Assembly: GCF_011761475.1 (NCBI RefSeq)
Contig: NZ_JAASRS010000001.1
Coordinates: 2,170,001 to 2,234,000, forward strand
Length of the DNA stretch: 64,000 nt
Source of the DNA: Saccharococcus thermophilus
Lineage (GTDB): Bacteria > Bacillota > Bacilli > Bacillales > Anoxybacillaceae
Direction: 5' to 3'
Positions 6,615 to 40,253 of this stretch are shown here, piece after piece (within the stretch, counting starts at the first letter, position 1; every line of letters begins with the position of its first letter). The notes under the pieces were generated by a model, which did no database searches, was not told the DNA's origin, and saw only the letters and a program-made list of their open reading frames with translations. The position numbers and the translations under genes are program-made.

Positions 6615-6646
6615 AAAGAGCCTTTCGAACAAAGGAAAGGCTCTTT
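6615..6646. terminator. terminator between ytvI and fxsA
   Basis: A 12-bp stem (6615-6626 with 6635-6646) followed by TTTTT on the plus strand. It ends immediately before the fxsA stop codon, so it may serve both convergent genes. Confidence 0.85.
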
Positions 6647-7045
6647 TTATCGATAAAATCGATAAAAATGGAAAAACGTTTTAGTGCGAAAAAACGATTT
6701 CAGCCAGCGGGCGATATACGGTTTCATCAGCGCACGCGTAAAAGGAAGAAGAAGAAACACCCCAAGTATATCGGTAAAAAAGCCTGGTGTTAACAACAGC
6801 ACTCCGCCAATGAGCACACAAATCCCATCAAGAATCGCTTCACTCGGAAGACGTCCGTATGACACTTCCCGTCTTGCTTTTTCGATCACTGCCAGTCCTT
6901 GTTGTTTCACAAGCCATATTCCTATCATCCCCGTTAGCATAAGGAAAGCAAGCGTAGGCCATATCCCGATCAATTTGCCGGAAAGAATAAACAGAGCGAT
7001 CTCCAAGGCTGGAATCACGATAAATATCCCGACTATCCATTTCAT
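6647..7045 (-). CDS. fxsA: FxsA-family membrane protein
   Basis: A 132-residue protein with about three or four hydrophobic segments and the FxsA pattern (GIWPTLAFLMLTGMIG and LLLTPGFFTDILG). E. coli FxsA affects phage exclusion by F; the cellular role in bacilli is not established. The gene follows pyk, separated by a terminator-like hairpin. The C-terminus is rich in Phe, Tyr and Arg and ends at the shared terminator. Confidence 0.85.
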   Translation of the reverse strand: MKWIVGIFIVIPALEIALFILSGKLIGIWPTLAFLMLTGMIGIWLVKQQGLAVIEKARREVSYGRLPSEAILDGICVLIGGVLLLTPGFFTDILGVFLLLPFTRALMKPYIARWLKSFFRTKTFFHFYRFYR

Positions 7046-30386: not shown

Positions 30387-30394
30387 ACTCCATA

Positions 30395-30465
30395 TTAAGC
30401 AATATTCGCCAATCTGACAACATCCCGCGCGATCATGACTTCTTCGTTTGTCGGAATGACTAATA
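30395..30465 (-). pseudogene. ackA: displaced native 3' end of ackA
   Basis: In the minus-strand frame this reads [21 protein letters not shown] followed by TAA, which is the acetate kinase C-terminus. The intact ackA at 39060-40253 ends instead [21 protein letters not shown]. The tail here is continuous with a terminator and moaB, so it is the original chromosomal end cut off when the element integrated. Confidence 0.9.
30420..30465. repeat. attachment-site repeat, moaB side
   Basis: 46 bp identical to 39085-39130. Weaker similarity continues for about 25 bp toward moaB, as expected if both are alleles of the ackA 3' end. Confidence 0.88.
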
Positions 30466-30841
30466 TTAGAAAAACTCACGAAAACGCTACTAAATTAACC
30501 TTTTTCATATTCCTTTTTTTACATTTTACTATTGAAGTTGCAATTTTTTCAAGTATTTTCTATAAAATTACCTCCGCTGTCACAATGAGTAAAACCTAAT
30601 CGTGTCGGAAAAAGTCAATGTCTGTTCACAGAATAGCTCGAACCATCCGCACCATTACTCAAAATACGGAATTTGTAAATATCCCCCACCCTAAATAAAA
30701 TCGTCGTTTTAAATAATCACTTTCATTGTCAATTTTCCGCTGAATTTTTAATTGTATAGAATGAAAAAATCAAAATGAAATGATTTCTAGTGCTATTACG
30801 TTTAAAATAAAAACCACCTACAAAAAAGTAGGTAGTTTAAG
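30466..30841. other. left end of the element, no gene seen
   Basis: 376 AT-rich bases without a credible reading frame. Contents: AACCTTTTTCATATTC at 30497-30512, which recurs inverted near the other end (38986-39001); a module at about 30680-30790 that has a diverged copy downstream of the serine recombinase gene; and the terminator of the lipoprotein gene at 30811-30838. Confidence 0.6.
30811..30838 (-). terminator. terminator after the lipoprotein gene
   Basis: An 11-bp stem (30811-30821 with 30828-30838, one G-U pair) immediately after the stop codon. Confidence 0.75.
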
Positions 30842-31447
30842 TTAATTCTTTTGATATTTATCTGGAATTTTCATATTAGCTATATTCTCGATATGTGTAC
30901 CGATTATTTTAAACAAACCTGCTCCTACCTCATTTAATTTTTGAAAATCACTGAATACAAACCCTAAATCTTCCATAGTTTGACTGTCATTAGTGACAGG
31001 ACTTTCAACATATTCTTTTACAATCTTATAATCATAACTATCCTTTATTTGCTGAACAAACGAATCAATATCGGTACTTCCAGAACCATCTAATTGTTCA
31101 AGTTCATCAATCGCTGGACGAAGTTTGTCAGTGGCTTCTTCAATTGTTGTTGGGCTTATGTAATCAGTGTCCTGCAAATAGTATTTTTCTACTTCAGTAA
31201 ATGTATCTAATACCGACTTAACTTTTTCCACAGTTTCTTTTTCTGCTTCTGTATCTCTTAATTTATTTCTAATCTTATTATCTTCTTTAATATCTAACGC
31301 TTTATTGTATAAAGAAATAGCATCCTCTAATCTTCCTTCTTTTCTATACTTGTCTGCTTGGCTTACATAATCTTGTATCTGTGCTTCTTTATTGCAACCA
31401 CTTAAAATTAAAGCGGTAAATATGAGTAAAAATAAAAATTTCTTCAA
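30842..31447 (-). CDS. lipoprotein with TPR-like region
   Basis: 201 residues. A lysine start, a hydrophobic stretch and the lipobox LILSGC (Cys18) mark a type II signal peptide, so the mature protein should be lipid-anchored on the outer face of the membrane. Residues about 25-60 resemble a tetratricopeptide repeat (YRKEGRLEDAISLYNKALDI). The rest is charged and helical with no recognised domain. It is the gene nearest the left end of the element, a position often held by cargo. Function unknown. Confidence 0.8.
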   Translation of the reverse strand: MKKFLFLLIFTALILSGCNKEAQIQDYVSQADKYRKEGRLEDAISLYNKALDIKEDNKIRNKLRDTEAEKETVEKVKSVLDTFTEVEKYYLQDTDYISPTTIEEATDKLRPAIDELEQLDGSGSTDIDSFVQQIKDSYDYKIVKEYVESPVTNDSQTMEDLGFVFSDFQKLNEVGAGLFKIIGTHIENIANMKIPDKYQKN

Positions 31448-31809
31448 GCCAATCCCTCCCGAAAAAGTAATGTTTTACAATAAAATAATATAAAAGTTAT
31501 AGTAACTTGGAAATATTTTTTAGGTCATTAAATAAGTTATCGTTCGAAAAATAGTCAGTGTAATCGTCTGACTGTGCTCGCCCCGTACAGACAAACGAAA
31601 ATTTTTTGATGGATATTTAATACCCCCCTATACTCTCAATAAAATTCCTGTTTTATATTGTCCGATCATATCATCGTTTTTCCTCTGAATTTTTTATTTA
31701 AAATAATGAAAAACTCAAAGAGAAATAATTCAACATGCTACTACACTAATCACCGCTATCCATTGAAAAATTTCAAAATAAATATTGAGAAAATCAGCAA
31801 AAAATAAAA
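31448..31809. other. intergenic region between lipoprotein and serine recombinase genes
   Basis: About 360 AT-rich bases. The part next to the lipoprotein gene should hold its promoter. The part at about 31630-31745 resembles the module at 30680-30790 (shared words CTGAATTTTT and AATGAAAAA-CTCAAA-like). No gene is supported. Confidence 0.5.
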
Positions 31810-31830
31810 AGGATAGCGGCTCGCTACCCT
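31810..31830 (-). terminator. terminator at the end of the serine recombinase gene
   Basis: A short GC-rich stem (GGATAGC/GCTACCC, with a G-U pair in the RNA) followed by TTTTTATTTT on the minus strand. It overlaps the stop codon. Confidence 0.75.
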
Positions 31831-32648
31831 TTATTACGTCTATTTCTGTTTAGTTTAGATTGTACTTTACCGAACGTGATTTTATTTATAATCGCTTCAT
31901 GATTTCCTTCTTTAACAATATCATCAAAACGGACAATTCCAGTATAAAAATCATTTTTCAATATTGTTTGAACCGCTTGTTTTGACCATTTATTTCCTCT
32001 TTGTGTCGTTATGCCCTTATCATTCAACTTGTCGGCAATCTGTTTTAAAGATAATCCTTTCAAATAGTCACTGAATATCTCTTTTACTATCTTCGCCTTT
32101 TCTTCATCAATTACAACCACCGGATTTTTACCTTGTTCGTTATACTTATATTTATATCCAAACGGACAATTTCCACTTGCTTTTTGTCCTTTTTTCTCCG
32201 CTTTTTCACGTCTACCACTAACCAACCGATCTGCAATCCGATTTTTTTCAAGTTCAGCAAAGACGGCGACCATCTGCCTCATTGCTACTGTCATATAGTC
32301 GTTACCGTTTAAATTATCCTCGTTTATACTTTCAATCTCAATGTCATAGACTTTCAATTCTTTTTCAATCCACAATTGAATATAAACGTCTCTTGCCAAT
32401 CTGTCCATTTTAGTAACTAATACTTTATTGACTTCATTCTCTCTGCAATACTGGATTAAATCTTTTAATCCTTTACGCTTGCTAACATCATTCGCACCCG
32501 ATACCCCTTTATCCTCGAATATAGCAACCAATTTAATATTATTCGCTTTGACATATTCTTCAATCTCTCTCTTTTGAATATCCAATCCGCTTCCGTTTTT
32601 TACCTGTTCTTCTGTAGAAACACGAACATAAGCAACCGCTTTACACAT
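31824..32648 (-). CDS. serine recombinase, short form
   Basis: 274 residues. The resolvase catalytic domain (about 1-145) has the nucleophile Ser in AYVRVSTEEQ and the arginines in TKMDRLARD and LEKNRIADR. It is followed by a recombinase domain (about 160-265; PFGYKYKYNEQ, WSKQAVQTILKNDFYTG). It stops there, lacking the zinc ribbon and coiled coil of typical large serine recombinases (about 450-550 residues), yet a terminator follows directly, so it looks naturally short. The ATG at 32648 has AAGGTGG nine bases upstream. Its target is unknown. Confidence 0.85.
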   Translation of the reverse strand: MCKAVAYVRVSTEEQVKNGSGLDIQKREIEEYVKANNIKLVAIFEDKGVSGANDVSKRKGLKDLIQYCRENEVNKVLVTKMDRLARDVYIQLWIEKELKVYDIEIESINEDNLNGNDYMTVAMRQMVAVFAELEKNRIADRLVSGRREKAEKKGQKASGNCPFGYKYKYNEQGKNPVVVIDEEKAKIVKEIFSDYLKGLSLKQIADKLNDKGITTQRGNKWSKQAVQTILKNDFYTGIVRFDDIVKEGNHEAIINKITFGKVQSKLNRNRRNKG

Positions 32649-32683
32649 GATACCGACCACCTTTACCAATTATTGTTAATTTA

Positions 32684-32712
32684 ATTGTAAAGGCAAATTG
32701 TTATATAGTCAA
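32684..32712 (-). promoter_or_regulatory. promoter of the serine recombinase gene
   Basis: TTGACT (32707-32712), a 17-base spacer and TACAAT (32684-32689) on the minus strand, 35 bases before the start codon. AATTGT-like words repeat around it and could bind a regulator. Confidence 0.7.
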
Positions 32713-32877
32713 TTCTTTTTTAAAAGATTTGACTAAAATATGCTTAATGCATTTATTTTACTTAATCCATTCGATATTTATCTATTAATGTAAACTATCC
32801 ATTAGAAAACTAGATGACATTCCAATAAATTACATGGTAAAATATAAGTAAGTAAGGTAAATATTCACCATCTCATC

Positions 32878-32908
32878 TGACTGGATACGACAATCCAGTC
32901 ATTTTTTC
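32878..32908 (+). terminator. plus-strand terminator without an upstream gene
   Basis: A perfect 9-bp stem (32878-32886 with 32893-32901) followed by six T. No plus-strand gene precedes it for several kb, so a small RNA is likely. Confidence 0.7.
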
Positions 32909-33173
32909 TGCTATCGCATCCGCTATCGTAAAACCATTGAGAAATAAGCATTTTCTACACTTCCACCGCTGTACCTAATTAAAAAATCGACTTCAAACCA
33001 TCGAAAAGCCTTGAGAAATAAGCGTTTTTCGATAAGCAATAACGACAACATAATGATATTTAAAAAACCCGTACCATTACTGCATTTTTTCAATTTCTCG
33101 ATCATCGTGTCGATAACATTGTTAATCGGCTCGATGACATTTTAGCACTTTAACACAATAAATTATGTGACAA

Positions 33174-33200
33174 TAAAAAAGACTAGCAGAAATGCTAGTC
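33174..33200 (-). terminator. minus-strand terminator beside the iterons
   Basis: A perfect 8-bp stem (33181-33188 with 33193-33200), a GAAA loop and a run of six or more T on the minus strand. The nearest upstream gene, the initiator-like gene, already has its own terminator at 33458. Confidence 0.75.
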
Positions 33201-33272
33201 CATTACCAAAAATACCCCTAACAGTTATGCACTTTTCGTTTCTTAAAACACTTGTGAATCAACGTTCTTGCC

Positions 33273-33380
33273 TAACCTCAAAATTAATACCCTTCTACCT
33301 CATTTTATTTAATATGTACCTCAATTTATTTAATATACTACCTCAAATTATTTAATATGTAACCTCAAAATAAATAAGAT
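33273..33380. repeat. iteron-like array, 21-22-bp direct repeats
   Basis: Four tandem units start at 33296, 33317, 33339 and 33360, each of the form TACCTCAATTTATTTAATAT with small changes. A more diverged unit precedes at about 33273 (TAACCTCAAAATTAATAC). The period of two helical turns and the position beside an initiator-like gene fit a replication or partition site. Confidence 0.75.
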
Positions 33381-33407
33381 AAATTGAAGCGTAGATATAA
33401 TATCATA

Positions 33408-33456
33408 TAGATTAGATAGATTATTATAGATTAGTAAAGATTAATAAAGATTAAGT
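33408..33456. repeat. five short repeats of about 10 bp in AT-rich DNA
   Basis: Units TAGATTAGA, TAGATTATTA, TAGATTAGTA, AAGATTAATA and AAGATTAAGT follow one another without gaps, one helical turn each. With the iterons 28 bp away this resembles the unwinding region of an origin. Confidence 0.7.
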
Positions 33457-33457
33457 A

Positions 33458-33486
33458 TTTCAACGCAAAGCAAGTTTGCGTTGAAA
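33458..33486 (-). terminator. terminator after the initiator-like gene
   Basis: A perfect 12-bp stem (33458-33469 with 33475-33486), ending four bases before the stop codon of the gene. Confidence 0.8.
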
Positions 33487-33489
33487 TGA

Positions 33490-34215
33490 TTAAATTTTAT
33501 TTTTTTGACTTAATTTTTCATGTAATGTATATATCCGTTCAATATTTACATGATAATGATTATTGTATCGTTGAAAATATGCTCTTTCATTCCCAAACTC
33601 ATCTTCTATATATCCATCCATTTCTAACTTGTGTCTCTTAATATCAATTAACTTATTTTTTTCTAATATCTTGTTATACCGTATAATTGTATTTTCAGAA
33701 AGCCCTGTTTCCTTTTGTATTGTTTGCATGGAAGTAAAACAAAATGGAAATGTCTTTTTTCGATTTGTATAGGATTCATAATAATATAATAACCTTACCC
33801 CAGTATGACCAATTTCATCAATCATACATTTGTCTAGGAGAATATAAGGCAATTGAGTATATGAAAAACGATCTTCTTTTTCTTTACCGACCTTATTCAA
33901 ATCAAAAAATGGATTAATTTCAATTTCAAGTAGTTGATTTCTAGGTAATTCATCGACTTTCGTTCTAATGAGTTTCATTTCATAAAGTTTGTTCAATGAT
34001 TTTTTTAATTTTTGGTTGCTCTTGATATTCGTATAATATTTAAAGTTCGTATGGTCAAAAGCTAAAACCTCTGATTTACTTCCTCTCCATCTGTATAGTT
34101 GTACTAACTTTGCATATACAAAAAATGTCGTGCAATCCATTTTTGAACTTCTGATAATTTTATGCGGAATCTGTATTTGAAATGTTTTATTTGTTTTAGT
34201 TTTAACTTTACTCAT
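33490..34215 (-). CDS. winged-helix protein, probable replication initiator
   Basis: 241 basic residues. Two winged-helix-like halves can be traced: about 10-110 (FFVYAKLVQLYRW to LNKLYEMKLIRTKVDE) and about 115-235, where SMQTIQKETGLSENTIIRYNKILEKNKLI is a helix-turn-helix. This doubled layout is seen in plasmid Rep proteins, and iterons lie just beyond its 3' end. A role in replication is inference; a phage-type regulator is the alternative. Confidence 0.65.
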   Translation of the reverse strand: MSKVKTKTNKTFQIQIPHKIIRSSKMDCTTFFVYAKLVQLYRWRGSKSEVLAFDHTNFKYYTNIKSNQKLKKSLNKLYEMKLIRTKVDELPRNQLLEIEINPFFDLNKVGKEKEDRFSYTQLPYILLDKCMIDEIGHTGVRLLYYYESYTNRKKTFPFCFTSMQTIQKETGLSENTIIRYNKILEKNKLIDIKRHKLEMDGYIEDEFGNERAYFQRYNNHYHVNIERIYTLHEKLSQKNKI

Positions 34216-34274
34216 ATCATACCTACCCCTTTTGTTTAATTTTTGATTAAGTGCTTATTAAATCGTTCAACCGT

Positions 34275-34436
34275 TCATCGTTTGTTTAAAATTTGTTGCA
34301 ATTCTTCCGTTTTCTCATAAAGCCAAAAACGATGCCCTTTGTTTGAAATCGCCGTTGTTATATATCGAATTCCATATGTATCAATTTTTCGTTTCAATGC
34401 TAAATCATAGCAAAAGAAATATTTTAATTTATTCAT
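34275..34436 (-). CDS. small protein, 53 residues (DUF5659-like)
   Basis: Starts MNKLKYFFCYDLALKRKIDT and ends KTEELQQILNKR. The pattern of an aromatic strand, RYITTAISNKGHRFWLYEKTEEL and a short helix resembles the DUF5659 family of small proteins on mobile elements. GGGAG lies nine bases before the ATG. It sits between the initiator-like gene and the interrupted HNH gene, in the same direction. Function unknown. Confidence 0.6.
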   Translation of the reverse strand: MNKLKYFFCYDLALKRKIDTYGIRYITTAISNKGHRFWLYEKTEELQQILNKR

Positions 34437-34552
34437 AATTATCTACTCCCTTGCTTAATTTTGGAAGGGAAGCGGCTTATTCAACCGCTCCCGCTTCTCA
34501 TTCATTCACTAGATAGAAAACTGATTATGTATTAAAGCAAAACAATTATGTA

Positions 34553-34623
34553 TTAATATTTACCTAAAAAGCGAAAAGCCGCTCTTTCTGTACCTGCAAC
34601 ATCTTTTGATTTTTGTGGATTCG
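34553..34623 (-). pseudogene. HNH gene, 3' fragment cut off by the IS256-type element
   Basis: Continues the frame of the HNH gene when the IS and one 8-bp duplication are removed: the junction reads VILF then PNPQKSKDVAGTERAAFRFL and ends in TAA at 34553. It has no start or promoter of its own, so it is not expressed as a separate protein. Confidence 0.85.
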
Positions 34624-34631
34624 GAAAAAGT

Positions 34632-36065
34632 GATGATGTATAAAAGTTTGTGTAAAGCATTTTGCTAGAACAAAAGAAAAAAGGTAGGGTATTCTCTGAT
34701 TGGACCAAAAATCTTAGAGAAAGGAGTACCCTACCTATGTCTAAAAGAAGTATACCGAATGTCGACTGGGCAAATCAACTGGAAAGTGTCATTCGTCAGT
34801 TTGTGAAGGAAAAATTAGAGCTGATTATGCGGGAAGAAATCAAACATTTCCTCGAAATCGAACAGGCTGGAACGCCGAATATGAGAAACGGCTACTATCA
34901 GCGAAATCTAGATACGCAATATGGCCGGATTGAGGGTCTTTTGGTTCCAAGAGACCGAAACGGGGAATTTCAAACACAGTTGTTTGCCCCTTATCAACGC
35001 CACACCGGCTGGCTGGAGGAAGCCATCATTAGGATGTATCAAAGTGGCATGAGTACACGGGAAATTGGCAAGTTTATCGAACGAATTCTAGGAAATGCTT
35101 ATTCTCCAGCGACGATCAGCCGTATTACCGATGTCGTGAAAGAAGACATCGAGAAATGGCACCATCGTCCACTATCCAAACGTTATTCTGTCTTATATTT
35201 GGACGGCTTGTACGTGAAACTTCGCCGCGATACGGTAGAGAAAGAAGTCATTTATGTGGTGTTAGGAGTGAATGAAGAAGGGTATCGAGAAATTCTGGAT
35301 TTCTTCGTGGGAGGACAAGAAAGCGCCTATGGATGGCAGGAAATTCTTCAACACCTCTACCAAAGAGGCGTCAAGGAAGTGCTTCTTGGCGTCTTCGATG
35401 GCCTTCCGGGGCTGGAGGAAGCCTTTAAGGCGGTGTATCCGAAAGCCGATGTGCAGCGCTGTGTCGTGCACAAAGTCCGCAACACCCTCAGCCGTGTTCG
35501 GAAAAAAGACCAATTCGAAGTGGCCGAGGATCTCAAGCTGATTTATCGCGCGCCGAATAAGGAGATGGCGTTACAAATGTTTCAACAGTTTGAGTCGAAA
35601 TGGTCCAGCAAATATCCAAGAGAAGTTCAATCTTGGGCCAATGAGTTGGATGTCCTCCTTACATTTATGGATTATCCAAGCAGTATTCGAAGTGTGATTT
35701 ACACGACGAATGTCATCGAACGAACGATCAAAGAGATTCGGAAACGTCTAAAGCCGATGAACAGTTTGAGCAGTTTAGAAGCCGCGGAAAAAGTCGTGTA
35801 TTTGACCATCCAAGATTTTAATGAGAAATGGGCAGGGCGAAAGTTAAGAGGATTTGCCGAAGCGCAGGAAGCCCTTCAACGAATGTTTGAAGAACGTTAT
35901 TGTTAACCAAATATTGTAAATAAACAAAATAAGGGGATTCTCCCTTTCCACACAAGAGACTGAATATTCAGTCTCCTGTGTGGAGAAAATCAGTCCCCTA
36001 TCAATTCAAATCCATTTCAGAGAAACCCTACCCCATTTACATTACACAAAATTCTTGACGGTACC
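34632..36065 (+). mobile_element. IS256-type insertion sequence, 1434 bp
   Basis: Bounded by the 8-bp direct duplication GAAAAAGT (34624-34631 and 36066-36073), the size expected for IS256. The ends align without gaps as imperfect inverted repeats of about 28 bp; the best match is TTTGTGTAA. A second inverted pair (GGTAGGGT...TTCTCTGA) lies about 50 bp (left) and 30 bp (right) inside the ends. A palindromic stretch at about 35935-35990 follows the transposase. Confidence 0.88.
34737..35906 (+). CDS. IS256-family (mutator) transposase
   Basis: 389 residues, full length for the family. The DDE residues lie in YLDGLYVKLR, GVFDGLPGLEEAF and TNVIERTIKEIRKRLKPM. The ATG at 34737 has AAAGGAG upstream; the earlier in-frame start at 34662 lies in the inverted-repeat region. 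The frame is intact, so the element may be active. Confidence 0.93.
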   Translation: MSKRSIPNVDWANQLESVIRQFVKEKLELIMREEIKHFLEIEQAGTPNMRNGYYQRNLDTQYGRIEGLLVPRDRNGEFQTQLFAPYQRHTGWLEEAIIRMYQSGMSTREIGKFIERILGNAYSPATISRITDVVKEDIEKWHHRPLSKRYSVLYLDGLYVKLRRDTVEKEVIYVVLGVNEEGYREILDFFVGGQESAYGWQEILQHLYQRGVKEVLLGVFDGLPGLEEAFKAVYPKADVQRCVVHKVRNTLSRVRKKDQFEVAEDLKLIYRAPNKEMALQMFQQFESKWSSKYPREVQSWANELDVLLTFMDYPSSIRSVIYTTNVIERTIKEIRKRLKPMNSLSSLEAAEKVVYLTIQDFNEKWAGRKLRGFAEAQEALQRMFEERYC

Positions 36066-36813
36066 GAAAAAGTATTACTACTTCTCCATTTTCTTTAGTA
36101 TAGAGAAAAGGCGTATCCCCTAATTCTATCCCTTTTTCTTTTAATTCGTTCATAATCTTATTTATTTCATTCATATTAGCTTGAGCTTCTGCATGTTTAC
36201 CTTCAATATAACGAATGGTTGCTAAACAATGTTTGTATTCTTCACTATTTACGTCTAAATACTTTAACTGTTCTCGGCATTGATTTTCTATATTTCTTAA
36301 ATATATACCGATTACATCTAATCCGTTCTCATAGAAAAACTGTCTGTCCTTTAATAATTGTTGAAAAGATGGATATAGTATTTTGATATCATTGTATATA
36401 CCATTTCCAACGGTCATTACATATTTATCATCTCTTGTTCTCTCAATATAAATTTGCTCATGATTGTAGAAGAAAATTTTTTTATTAGCTTGATTAGGTG
36501 CTTCATCATCACATATGCGTAAATTAGCTTCTCTATTGTCATTTCTACAATGGTTAATATGGTCAATATCTCTGCTGTCTTTATCATCTAAAACATTCAT
36601 GATTAATCTGTGCATGTAAATATGAACACGCTGTCCATTTGGATAAATATCAGCAACTGCGTAACCATTTTCGTAATACCACGTGAAGGGTCTTACTTTC
36701 TCAACATTGTGTGCATCAATGATAAAACATTTATCTGGTTTATTACTCGCATAAACATATGCTACCTGTCCAACAATCTCGATTCGATTTCCTTTTCGTT
36801 TTCTGTTCTTCAT
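36066..36813 (-). pseudogene. HNH-endonuclease-like gene, 5' part interrupted by the IS
   Basis: About 248 native codons; the frame then reads ten codons into the IS. An HNH-like core lies at about residues 65-105 (MHRLIMN, IDHINHCRNDNREANLRI), as in phage and intron-type HNH enzymes. The C-terminal half is helical and acidic (EAQANMNEINKIMNELKEKGIELG). The native protein would have 272 residues. AAGGGG precedes the ATG. Since only about 24 residues are replaced by IS-coded residues, partial function is possible. Confidence 0.8.
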
Positions 36814-37154
36814 ACACTCATTACCCCTTTGCTTAATTTATTTTTTAATCCCTCTAAACCACCAACCGACAACAACCACTCTACCGCTACACCCCTCTCA
36901 CCTCCTTTAAATTAAGAAAACACTAATGTAAGTTTTTGGAATTACCTATATAACGTATGTTATCATGGCAATACATTTTGTAATTTATGAACGTTTTATA
37001 TTACTTTTATAAAAAATGTTCGTCATTTAATTATAAATCGACGAAAAAAATAAAAATAAAATAATTTATATGATTAATATCCGAACTTTGTAATTTCATA
37101 ATAATCAACCTTATGAAATTTTTCAACATCTTTTTTTTAACTTTTCAGTAAAAA
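36814..37154. other. AT-rich region upstream of the HNH gene
   Basis: About 340 bases with no credible gene. It presumably holds the HNH-gene promoter. It is among the most AT-rich stretches of the window, and no clear repeat or RNA was recognised in it. Confidence 0.5.
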
Positions 37155-37188
37155 ATAAATCCGCTTCCTAACTGGATAGCGGATTTAT
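37155..37188. terminator. terminator of the integrase operon
   Basis: A perfect 11-bp stem (37155-37165 with 37178-37188). A-runs precede and seven T closely follow it, so it can act in both directions. It lies 11 bases past the last gene of the integrase cluster. Confidence 0.85.
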
Positions 37189-37198
37189 ATTTTTTTAA

Positions 37199-37429
37199 TT
37201 ATTCCTCTTCGATACTATTGATTTCTATTTCAAAATCCTCGATACTAGGTTTCAAAACTTCACCGTTTAAATGCTCCAATTTCATTTCAACATTCGCTAC
37301 CGATAAATCATTTAGTTGGCGTTGTACAATCATTTCCGCTTCTTGCTGATTTTTCGCCTTTACTTCTATTGAAACTGTAGCTTTAATGTCTGCAAGCACT
37401 AGATATTTATTTTCAGTTACTGTATTCAT
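37199..37429 (-). CDS. small protein of unknown function, 76 residues
   Basis: Begins MNTVTENKYLVLADIKATVS, with an alternating beta pattern, a helix (KNQQEAEMIVQRQLNDL) and an acidic tail (EDFEIEINSIEEE). The ATG at 37429 has AAGGGG ten bases upstream; the frame to 37480 lacks a site. It is last in the integrase-led cluster, 40 bases after the preceding gene. No domain recognised. Confidence 0.65.
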   Translation of the reverse strand: MNTVTENKYLVLADIKATVSIEVKAKNQQEAEMIVQRQLNDLSVANVEMKLEHLNGEVLKPSIEDFEIEINSIEEE

Positions 37430-37469
37430 ATCTATGATTCCCCTTTCATTTTTTAATATTGTTCCCTTT

Positions 37470-37652
37470 TTATTCTGCATAATTCAATATTTCAAATACG
37501 TTTTTGTATTGTTGCTGAATCTCAATCAACGATTCAATATTTTTTCCTCCTGCTTGTGCAAAACGAATTTCACGATCAATGTCTTTGATTTGCATCGTGA
37601 GGACTGTTTTTATTATTGCTAGTTCTTCATCGGTCAATTTTACAGTTTTCAT
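37470..37652 (-). CDS. small helical protein of unknown function, 60 residues
   Basis: MKTVKLTDEELAIIKTVLTM begins a helical hairpin with a second helix around IESLIEIQQQYKNVFEIL. The start follows the previous stop directly, with GGGGTGG five bases upstream. Similar short proteins occur on mobile elements, but no function is known. Confidence 0.6.
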   Translation of the reverse strand: MKTVKLTDEELAIIKTVLTMQIKDIDREIRFAQAGGKNIESLIEIQQQYKNVFEILNYAE

Positions 37653-37937
37653 TCAAGCCACCCCTTTCTTTACTCTTGCTTCAAGCCCTGCGAAAAGTGG
37701 GCAATCGAGCATATCAGCGCAAAATGTGCTTATAGCTTCTTGATATGAAATACGATGATATTTTCCATTAACAAACACTTCAACAATGAACGAATCATTT
37801 AATGCAATATATTCCCCGATTTCCAGTTGTAAAAATGCTTGTCCATTTTCGATTACTAATGTGCCAAGCGTGTAATTATCGAGAAAAGCGTCTATTTTGC
37901 GTGTAGTGTATTTAATGTTTTCAGAAAGGATATTCAT
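37653..37937 (-). CDS. small protein, 94 residues (DUF5348-like)
   Basis: A mostly beta protein; the pattern GTLVIENGQAFLQLEIGEYI followed by VEVFVNGKYHRISYQE resembles the DUF5348 family common on mobile elements of Firmicutes. AGGAGG lies eight bases before the ATG, inside the end of the integrase gene (17-base overlap), so it is co-translated with integrase. Confidence 0.6.
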   Translation of the reverse strand: MNILSENIKYTTRKIDAFLDNYTLGTLVIENGQAFLQLEIGEYIALNDSFIVEVFVNGKYHRISYQEAISTFCADMLDCPLFAGLEARVKKGVA

Positions 37938-38952
37938 TTTGATTACCTCCTTTAGTTCGCTTCACTTTTCTTTGCTTATGTTCTTCCAAAAGATGAATAG
38001 GTGAAAATCGTTCATGTTGTTCTCGAATCGTTGAATCAAGCACATGTGCATATCGTTGTGTTGTAGAAAGGTCACTATGGTCTAAAATTTTTTGAAGCAC
38101 CCGTACCGAACCGTTCTGTTGGATAAACATTGCTGAAGCCGTATGGCGAAATAAATGTGCATGAACACGTTTTTTAATTCCTGCTCGTTCGATTATCGTT
38201 TTTAAATGCTTCCTAAATGCACTTTGCCCTAATGGTTTTCCATGATTCGTCAGAAATACATATTCACTTTTAAAATCAGCGTTTTCTTCTTTTAGTTCTT
38301 GGAGAAGTTTTACCGTCTTTTTCGTAATAGGTATAGTCCGAATCTTCTTGTTTTTGGTATTTGTGAATGTAATGCAATGATGTTCAAAATCAACGTCATT
38401 CCACGTAAGTGAAAGAACTTCTCCTATGCGTCCAAAACTATCAAGAAGCACATGAATCAAAACGTACATGCGAAATTCACTGTATATTTCATCTTTCTTG
38501 AGTGTACGGAGTATCTTTTTAATTTCTGGAATGGTTAGTATGTCAATTTTCTTCTGATGTTCTTTCACTTTTTTAACGTGTTGAAAAATATTTTCTTCTA
38601 CAATTTCCTCGTTTTTAAGAACGGAAAAAATTGCTTTTGCATACGTGAGATAGGTATTTACTGTTGAAACTGAAACACCAATTTTTTTAACCTTTTTCGT
38701 TTTCTGATTTAAAAATTGAATTTTCTTATTGAGTTGCCAGTCAATGAATTGTCTTACGTCATCTGTTGTAAGTGAAGAAATATCTGTTTCTTCTCCCCAA
38801 AAGCGATCAAAATCATTAAATACCTTCTCATAGTTATCAAGTGAATTTTTTGAAAGTCCTTCAATCTTTTTAATTTGTAAAACGATTTTCCTTGCATCGT
38901 TAATCGTATAAACTTTCTTTTTATTAACATGTTTCCGCTTTTTTAACGGCAA
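37921..38952 (-). CDS. int: tyrosine recombinase (integrase)
   Basis: About 343 residues. A SAM-like core-binding domain (about 20-130) precedes the catalytic domain with the full set of residues: Arg in SFGRIGEVLSLTW, His-x-x-Arg in HAHLFRHTAS, His in LDHSDLST and the nucleophile Tyr in TQRYAHV. The TTG at 38952 is chosen since AGGAGG lies 12 bases upstream; a TTG at 38964 touches the site and is less likely. It lies about 110 bases from the end of ackA with no strong terminator between, so ackA transcription may reach it. Confidence 0.9.
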   Translation of the reverse strand: MPLKKRKHVNKKKVYTINDARKIVLQIKKIEGLSKNSLDNYEKVFNDFDRFWGEETDISSLTTDDVRQFIDWQLNKKIQFLNQKTKKVKKIGVSVSTVNTYLTYAKAIFSVLKNEEIVEENIFQHVKKVKEHQKKIDILTIPEIKKILRTLKKDEIYSEFRMYVLIHVLLDSFGRIGEVLSLTWNDVDFEHHCITFTNTKNKKIRTIPITKKTVKLLQELKEENADFKSEYVFLTNHGKPLGQSAFRKHLKTIIERAGIKKRVHAHLFRHTASAMFIQQNGSVRVLQKILDHSDLSTTQRYAHVLDSTIREQHERFSPIHLLEEHKQRKVKRTKGGNQNEYPF

Positions 38953-38985
38953 AGAAAAAAGCAACCTCCTTTCATATCCACTTTA

Positions 38986-39001
38986 GAATATGAAAAAGGT
39001 T
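38986..39001. repeat. inverted partner of the left-end 16-mer
   Basis: GAATATGAAAAAGGTT here is the exact reverse complement of 30497-30512. The two copies lie inside the element near its two ends and could be arm-type sites for the integrase. Confidence 0.5.
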
Positions 39002-39059
39002 GCTTTAGCAGGTTTTCGTTAGTTACGAGTTTAGGTTTTGGTTTGCAAAACCCTTCAAA

Positions 39060-40253
39060 TCATTGTAAGTTCGCCAACCGCATCACATCCCGCGCGATCA
39101 TGACTTCTTCGTTTGTCGGAATGACTAATACTTTCACCGGGGAATGTGGATAGTTAATGAACGCTTCTTTGCCGCGCACTTTATTTAATACCGGGTCCCA
39201 GTACACTCCCATAAATTCGAGGCCATGCAATACTTTCGCGCGGATTAATTCACTGTTTTCGCCAATTCCAGCGGTGAAAATGATGGCATCCACACCGCAC
39301 ATGCGCGCCGCATAAGAACCGATATATTTATGAATGCGATTAGCAAATACTTCAAGCGCTAGCTCAGCACGCTCGTTTCCTTCCGCCGCCGCTTTTTCCA
39401 AATCGCGTAAATCGCTTGAAAGACCGGAAATTCCAAGCATTCCGCTTTTCTTATTTAATACTTCAAGCACTTCCTCCACAGTCATTCCCGTTTTTTGCAT
39501 AATGTAAGGGATAAGGGCTGGGTCAATGTTCCCTGAACGCGTTCCCATCGCTACACCGGCGAGCGGCGTAAAGCCCATGGACGTATCGATCGATTTTCCG
39601 CCCTCAACCGCAGCGATGCTGGCCCCATTTCCAAGATGGCAGGAAATGAGACGAAGCTGTTCAATCGGACGGCCAAGCAATTCGGCAGCACGTTGTGTCA
39701 CATACTTATGGGACGTACCATGGAACCCGTATTTGCGAATGCCAAATTTCGTATAGTACTCATATGGAAGGCTGTATAAAAACGATTGCTCCGGCATCGT
39801 TTGATGAAACGCCGTATCGAATACCGCCACGGCAGGCACATTTGGCAACACTTCTTGAAATGCCTTAATGCCAACGATGTTTGCCGGGTTATGAAGCGGG
39901 GCAAGCTCGGATACTTCTTCGATTTGTTTTAATACCTCATCGGTAATCAGCACCGAATCGCTGAATTTTTCCCCGCCATGCACCACGCGATGGCCGATTC
40001 CGTCAATTTCTTCAAACGAACGAATAATACCGTGGCTAATTAGTTTGTCAAGCAACATTTTGACAGCTACCGAGTGGTTCGGAATCGCTGTCACTTCTTG
40101 AATTTTTTCACCGTTCACGGTAATCGTAAAAATCGCATCGTCAAAACCGATTCGTTCCACGACCCCTTTGGTTAGCACCGTTTCGCTCGGCATTTCAAAT
40201 AATTGAAACTTTAAAGACGAACTACCGGCGTTAATTGCTAAAATTTTAGACAT
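39060..40253 (-). CDS. ackA: acetate kinase, C-terminus supplied by the element
   Basis: Forms ATP and acetate from acetyl phosphate in overflow metabolism. 397 residues, complete. The ASKHA nucleotide fold is shown by [12 protein letters not shown] at the N-terminus, [10 protein letters not shown], and the adenine-region GIGENS. The last codons (from about 39084 down) differ from the host copy left at 30395, giving MRLANLQ instead of VRLANIA, so function is probably kept. The host terminator has been lost downstream. Confidence 0.96.
39085..39130. repeat. attachment-site repeat, ackA side
   Basis: 46 bp identical to 30420-30465. It lies within the ackA coding sequence, and crossover here joined host ackA to the element-borne 3' end. 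Confidence 0.88.

Follow-up and report, generated by a model that had tools for sequence, protein, structure and literature searches.

The 64-kb window (the whole stretch of DNA analysed) very probably carries a Rep-iteron replication origin, situated on an 8.67-kb mobile element that was inserted in ackA. The same two elements, an origin of this type and an integrating replicon around it, had been proposed in the initial annotation, and that reading is supported by the comparisons of sequence and predicted structure reported here. The origin cassette comprises rep, iterons, an AT-rich tract, a hairpin and, in some loci, a small ORF. Outside the window, cassettes of this type were encountered in virus contigs, prophages and temperate phages, which makes a small integrating replicon, with an origin of phage type, the best description of the element. 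The coordinates of all features are provided in Table 1.

In the proposed mechanism, Rep would bind the five iterons and destabilise the adjoining tract, and host replication proteins or helicase loaders would be recruited there, so that the excised circle could replicate in the manner of RepE-type plasmids. The tyrosine integrase would recombine the 46-bp repeats at the 3' end of ackA; integration is indicated by the sequence, and excision is presumed.

Table 1. Features of the element and of its putative replication origin (positions in the window)
Feature	Position	Strand	Evidence or remark
attL, left copy of the 46-bp direct repeat	30420..30465		Identical to 39085-39130; joined flanks align to a relative
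Small TPR-like lipoprotein, cargo	30842..31447	-	TPR models under cut-offs (best 3e-5); LPAM_1 E 0.015
Serine recombinase, 281 aa, Resolvase and Recombinase domains	31824..32669	-	PF00239 1.9e-31; PF07508 1.8e-24
Iteron 1	33274..33295	+	Second half diverged
Iteron 2	33296..33316	+	Tandem Repeats Finder array
Iteron 3	33317..33338	+	Tandem Repeats Finder array
Iteron 4	33339..33360	+	17/22 bases equal to the unit typed from the L022 array
Iteron 5	33361..33382	+	Tail diverged
AT-rich tract, 10-bp phased TAGATTA/AAGATTA	33393..33454	+	Probable DNA unwinding element, from sequence
AAGTATTT	33453..33460	+	Position where most relatives carry CAGTATTT; 7/10 to ACAGTATTTA by eye
Hairpin, 12-bp arms and 5-nt loop, end of module	33458..33486	+	Inverted repeat; z = -3.9
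rep, 241-aa two-winged-helix protein, probable replication initiator	33490..34215	-	AlphaFold2 model; fold match to RepE54 of F, Z up to 11.2 across 184-192 residues
53-aa ORF upstream of rep	34275..34436	-	phrog_21297 E 5e-4; similar ORFs precede rep in other loci
IS256-family insertion sequence, later arrival	34631..36065	+	PF00872 1e-102; edges from plasmid copies
HNH-type endonuclease gene, 3' end overlapped by the IS	36037..36813	-	phrog_959 E 3.6e-9
Small ORF	37199..37480	-	No match above cut-off
Small ORF	37653..37937	-	No match
Tyrosine integrase, 347 aa, adjoins attR	37921..38964	-	PF00589 4e-38
attR, right copy of the repeat, inside ackA	39085..39130		3' end of ackA newly supplied by the element

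Repeat array, AT-rich tract and hairpin

All five iterons open with (T/A)ACCTCA, at positions 33274, 33296, 33317, 33339 and 33361, which gives spacings of 22, 21, 22 and 22 bp. Iterons 2 to 4 are near-identical to each other and copies 1 and 5 are partly diverged, so the initial count of four clear 21-22-bp repeats and one diverged copy was a fair one. A weak inverted half-copy, TTGAAG at 33384-33389, follows iteron 5; it was recognised by eye only, by analogy with the inverted last half-iteron present in L022, L007 and other loci. Tandem Repeats Finder placed a period-22 array at 33296-33368 (score 107) at the top of its 10 rows for the 64 kb. The 350 bp beyond rep had an array score of 49; none of 60 dinucleotide shuffles exceeded 35, and the maximum among 180 other stretches of the same length in the window was 37. 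Relative to rep, the array is located past the 3' end of the gene and not upstream of it, a position that, like the hairpin, was not mentioned in the initial annotation. It consists of one iteron set, with the hairpin on the other side of the AT tract.

The very AT-rich character attributed to this DNA was confirmed, the G+C content being 22% at 33260-33460 as against 33% in the element and 45% in the remainder of the window. The approximately 10-bp repeats built on TAGATTA or AAGATTA were also recovered, as an array of 5.1 copies at 33405-33453 (Tandem Repeats Finder score 50). Self-match at a shift of 10 over the 60 bp before the hairpin was 0.62, compared with 0.37 in shuffles (z = 3.8), and none of the other shifts from 4 to 15 exceeded z = 1.5.

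One sequence in 33101-33700 agreed with the DnaA box TTATCCACA at 8 of 9 positions; it is at 33108, some 160 bp away from the array. DnaA boxes vary among many iteron origins. The word TGAGGT occurs 0 times in the window and ACCTCA 17 times, where shorter words predict 2.1 and 11.3, respectively, and this strand bias is thus partly expected from the shorter words. No Rfam family was found at gathering scores in 30400-39200. An imperfect 25-bp direct repeat (32930-32954 and 33004-33028, 22/25 identical) is located between the serine recombinase gene and the origin.

The Rep protein

The product of rep has the predicted fold of an initiator with two winged helices, and its sequence family is without a name in Pfam or NCBIfam. 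The AlphaFold2 model, which was built from 17 aligned proteins (that of the window and those of virus contigs), had a pLDDT of 82.8 and a pTM of 0.81 and shows two winged helices, corresponding to the two winged-helix-like halves described previously. Foldseek ranked RepE54 of plasmid F first, at an E value of 7.4e-3 only, with the DnaD N-domain and archaeal regulators close behind. In a second fold list, the first 39 rows were plasmid Rep entries (Z 9.9-11.2, 181-192 of 241 residues, rmsd 4.2-4.9), and these were counted as one match because they are crystals of essentially one protein; the titles give RepE54 where a name is given, two read 'Rep protein' only, and those with a series title only were taken to be RepE54. 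Rows that covered the second half (Z 8.5-9.9) bore the titles DNA binding protein, initiator and Rep-DNA complex or belonged to the DnaD N-domain; the entries titled initiator or Rep-DNA complex are presumably pSK41-type RepA. Unrelated winged-helix proteins in the same list reached Z 8-9. Matches in a viral structure library included a replication initiator and replication protein O, both at E values of about 1e-5. The predicted fold is therefore closest to that of RepE of F, in agreement with the initiator-like role first suggested for this protein.

At the sequence level, Pfam and NCBIfam yielded matches to HTH_36 and, weakly, to RepL, both under the cut-off, and none of the Rep-family models in these two libraries passed its cut-off for this protein. 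Phage replication-initiator and DnaD-like families of PHROGs aligned with a portion of the second half (best E 2e-7). At E 0.1, 19 members of the Rep family together matched 22 families, of which Rep_3 (PF01051) was not one, and PDB sequences contained no match to the 19-member Rep profile at E 10. Assignment of Rep to a named family was rejected, the Pfam and NCBIfam matches being only short helix-turn-helix matches or matches below cut-off.

The 53-aa ORF upstream of rep had tblastn matches in 8 of 48 loci, some of which overlap (best E 1.3e-11). By reading, 9 of 30 loci have a comparable ORF in front of rep, the window included and L036 doubtful at 17% identity. In L007 and L022 a helicase gene of the RecD/exonuclease V-like kind ends at this place instead, and several other loci appear alike by eye.

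The origin module in related loci

The window was compared with 29 other loci that encode homologous proteins, mostly virus contigs and prophages, giving 30 loci in all. The following were dropped before counting: L017, in which rep and the downstream DNA equal those of L016, and L023, which equals L006; L031-L033, whose tblastn values equal those of L007-L009; the shorter copies L002-L004, L024 and L025; and the weak partial profile matches L026-L030. The array beyond rep scored above all 60 shuffles and all control windows of the same locus in 23 of the 30 loci, the window included, although these locus counts overstate independence because several loci are close kin (L014/L015, L019-L021 and L022/L044). 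The test failed in seven loci. In Psychrobacillus phage Perkons (L001), which has a homologous protein, no array was seen in the 350 bp beyond rep; in L005, L006, L013, L018, L039 and L043, repeats were visible by eye without exceeding all shuffles. The locus L016 carries six repeat copies at 6621-6900, with a score of 69 that is the highest of the 30 together with that of L038, and these repeats are followed by an ORF that by eye resembles a UvrD-type helicase.

The motif ACAGTATTTA was present at 9/10 or better in 22 of 30 loci, compared with 69 of 1326 control windows; the motif was taken from the same loci, and the L005 instance among the 22 falls outside the module. When anchors were searched for by score only, those of several loci (among them the window and L005) fell outside the module; anchors were subsequently set by hand in 28 loci, a procedure that leans towards the module. 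At the anchor place the window carries TAAGTATTTC, a weak form with 7/10 agreement to ACAGTATTTA. By reading, the order in 22 of the 28 loci is rep, iterons, AT tract and hairpin place. In the other six (the window, L005, L016, L036, L037 and L038), the module is inverted relative to rep, with the order rep, hairpin place, AT tract and iterons. The hairpin was significant in 9 of 28 loci (p <=0.05, mononucleotide shuffles), of which L009, L011, L034, L039 and L044 have the one orientation and the window, L005, L037 and L038 the inverted one. Since the hairpin adjoins the AT tract in both orientations, this arrangement suggests that it is part of the origin and not only a terminator of rep.

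A DNA profile was constructed from the origins of the 27 other loci, oriented as read and with the window excluded, and was run on both strands of the 64 kb. The only match below E = 1 was at 33378-33514, on the + strand as expected (E 0.0017), and the next had an E value of 1.3. Smaller profiles, of ten and two members, reached the iterons with E values no better than 1 and 1.9, respectively. The iteron sequences vary by group, and by eye they are of the ACCTCAA, TCCCAA, AGTGTAA and TGCAGAGGTA kinds; those of the window look like those of L022 and L044. The best fit of the L022 unit in the 64 kb, on either strand, was iteron 4, and iterons 2 and 3 matched it at 15/22, a level reached by 8 places in all.

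These results uphold the layout of an iteron plasmid that had been recognised in the window, as iterons and an AT tract lie beside homologous proteins elsewhere. The 10-bp phase, likened earlier to the unwinding motifs of bacterial origins, is clear in the window but was not specific to a shift of 10 across the 28 loci, where mean self-match was raised at shifts 4, 7, 8, 10, 11, 12, 14 and 15; it was for this reason rejected as a family trait and is not claimed as one.

The element in ackA

The borders of the element consist of 46 identical bases, 8665 bp apart. Integration swaps the last codons of ackA (30390-30465 and 39060-39130), so that the gene now ends in VMRLANLQ and its old end, VVRLANIA, is left as a fragment at the left border. 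When joined, the flanks align with the moaB-ackA region of G034 in one piece of 1236 columns, with 89% identity, 12 gap positions and without the insert; G034 thus represents the unoccupied site in a relative. The site-specific integrase, the direct att repeats and the empty site are the attributes of an integrative mobile element, and on sequence grounds the insertion is assigned to that class.

The serine recombinase is a second recombinase, and its length falls short of the 465 positions of the XisF model to which it was matched. The IS256-family copy is one of 41 long copies in its own genome. When the whole element was compared with plasmids, 7 records were obtained, the matches listed all fell within the IS stretch, and they were to plasmids of Geobacillus and Parageobacillus only. 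The IS lies on the upstream side of rep, whose expression it might influence.

No terminase or virion genes were detected in 8 ORFs searched against Pfam and NCBIfam or in 5 ORFs searched against PHROGs, and two further small ORFs of the element had no Pfam match. A comparison of 138 stop-to-stop segments (the IS left out) with the 48 loci in hand revealed no trace of structural phage genes. Good matches were limited to rep, the small ORF, the integrase and the serine recombinase, and three further segments matched weakly, at E 5e-4 (antisense to rep), 0.008 and 0.008. Among viral contigs there was one weak relative of the integrase and none of the HNH protein. PADLOC models matched the element at E 0.001-0.005 at best, which was not convincing.

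Distribution of Rep relatives

The named hosts of Rep relatives are Bacillales. A single-sequence search of 41 genomes of the family identified, besides the own genome, G028 only (47%), and one relative (G347, 32%) was found in 397 genomes sampled from the order, in which a four-row Rep profile gave five more weak partial matches. Single-sequence searches of genome contigs and viral contigs returned no Rep relative; alignments were needed, and with these 27 virus-contig loci and four genome contigs (two of Paenibacillus, one of Neobacillus and one of Bacillus) were recovered. The sequence NNHY is present near the end in 29 of 30 Reps (L043 has NNEY), a conservation that is partly by construction because the search patterns contained NNHY.

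Four Rep queries (window, L005, L019 and L038) matched a single phage, Perkons, and none of 72,556 plasmid records. The expectation that related iterons would occur on free plasmids was therefore not borne out, the relatives found being phages, prophages and virus contigs. Of the integrating plasmid envisaged in the initial annotation, the integrative part is supported by the integrase, the attachment repeats and the empty site.

Terminase genes were sought in 27 records, Perkons included. PF03354 matched 7 of these, 5 above cut-off, and the terminase large subunit model phrog_2 matched 16, the union being 18 of 27; these counts are rough in both directions because phrog_2 is permissive (it also matched in 11 of 14 control genomes) and because neither model detects Perkons, a real phage, or L006, whose terminase subunits and portal protein were found by other models. 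In L006 (5879-18808), a prophage lies downstream of a transketolase-like gene, with an integrase, the rep-origin cassette, a resolvase, the terminase subunits and the portal protein in one stretch.

Alternative interpretations

Integrating plasmid, shrunken prophage and satellite are possible readings that overlap, and so do the probabilities given to them. That the element is a prophage shrunk by internal deletion, its origin a relic of the parent phage that was perhaps never a plasmid origin, is considered possible, if somewhat doubtful, and it shares part of its probability with the preferred reading because it is compatible with a Rep-iteron origin. The occurrence of rep relatives in phages, prophages and virus contigs, with a terminase in a rough 18 of 27 records, would fit such a history, as would the order integrase, small ORF, rep, origin and resolvase, which is like the integrase side of prophage L006, and the overlap of the IS insertion with the HNH gene. 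Against decay of this kind, the integrase, rep, the origin and both attachment repeats look intact, and the 138 segments showed no structural-gene trace against the 48 loci in hand.

A satellite of the PICI kind, which would excise and replicate upon entry of a helper phage, is unlikely, although it too overlaps with the preferred reading. An integrase, an initiator, an origin 3' of rep and the lack of structural genes among those found are traits shared with PICIs as described in PMC6092414, but neither a primase nor a terminase small subunit was present among the ORFs scanned, there is one iteron set instead of two flanking the AT tract, and the element measures 8.7 kb compared with 12-15 kb.

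A reading of the protein as a transcription regulator, and of the repeats as operators or as a partition site, is very unlikely. Winged-helix regulators of archaea and bacteria also occur in the Foldseek list, and iterons can serve as partition sites, as PMC6669507 argues for phage B83; nevertheless, the array was located beyond the 3' end of the gene and not at its promoter wherever an array was read, it is paired with an AT tract, the full-length fold match is to an initiator, and no partition gene was recognised in the element. Chance repeats in low-complexity DNA, which a G+C content of 22% might favour, are contradicted by the shuffles, the control windows and the profile of relatives and have a negligible probability.

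Implications

Rep-iteron origins as a kind are well known. The libraries searched had no name for the Rep family, for the cassette that occurs either way round or for its occurrence in a small ackA-specific element, and a literature search returned none of the three. If the element has been read correctly, these loci would add an initiator family that is unnamed by the Pfam and NCBIfam models searched and matched in part by PHROGs initiator models, and would provide about 28 natural origins for comparison with those of iteron plasmids. Compact replicons for Bacillales would be suggested, thermophiles included if the host is one, and the link between plasmid-style origins and large temperate phages would bear on the passage of phages between integrated and plasmid states.

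A more far-reaching proposal, which is regarded as quite unlikely, supposes that large temperate phages have a hitherto undescribed family of initiators, with a movable origin module that can be oriented either way, and that a small integrating element captured this cassette. The Rep of a resident phage might then activate the origin of the element, or vice versa, and the element would act as a replication parasite of such phages or interfere with them. Such cross-firing is conceivable because the iterons remain similar to those of a phage-like contig even though the two Reps share only about 30% identity.

Comparison with known systems

The closest relative by Rep is the G028 locus (L076, L005 and L077), with 43-47% identity to the Rep of the window and, by reading, the same inverted order of hairpin, AT repeats and iterons. 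Its gene content differs, with matches to models of a tubulin-family protein, FtsK, a TrbL-like protein, RecD2, PhoH and MrpR. The product of L077 13556-14686 belongs to the Tubulin/FtsZ family (PF00091 1.6e-14; PhuZ-type PHROG 1.8e-7), with FtsK and TrbL-like genes near, and MrpR models matched L076 8874-9875 (7e-30); MrpR is a phage repressor. The tubulin-family, FtsK, TrbL-like, RecD2 and MrpR genes would fit a replicon kept as a circle.

Perkons and the virus-contig loci L007-L022 and L035-L044 encode homologous Reps with 28-41% identity over the aligned part, and L007-L022 and L035-L044 mostly have iterons, an AT tract and CAGTATTT beyond rep, like the window. They differ in scale, the Perkons and virus-contig records being 16-218 kb in length with a terminase match in 18 of 27 and the element being 8.7 kb without one. 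Tyroviruses (PMC9703825) and the phage-plasmid B83 (PMC6669507) are temperate phages of Bacillus that carry plasmid-like genes and several tyrosine recombinases, and a plasmid stage has been proposed for them. For tyroviruses integration has been proposed too, and three tyrosine recombinases are attributed to Perkons as well (PMC9703825). Among phage records, only Perkons matched the four Rep queries.

PICIs, as described in PMC6092414, combine an integrase, an initiator and an origin directly 3' of rep with the absence of virion genes, and the origin in the window likewise lies immediately 3' of rep. The element differs in its single iteron set, its smaller size and the lack of a primase among the ORFs scanned. 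A pair of divergent regulators with a master repressor was not recognised in a scan that covered few ORFs of 40-60 aa and that a very small repressor could escape.

With the Rep_3 iteron plasmids, of which RepE of F is the example, the Rep of the window has no detectable sequence relationship, and the second half of its model also resembles the DnaD N-domain and entries of initiators and Rep-DNA complexes. In 33101-33700, no clear DnaA box was seen beyond the one 8/9 match at 33108. The two systems are alike in the two winged-helix halves of the initiator (by the model), in direct repeats of about 20 bp and in the adjoining AT-rich tract, and the layout in the window is the same as that given for iteron plasmids, together with their mechanism, in the review PMC4980987.
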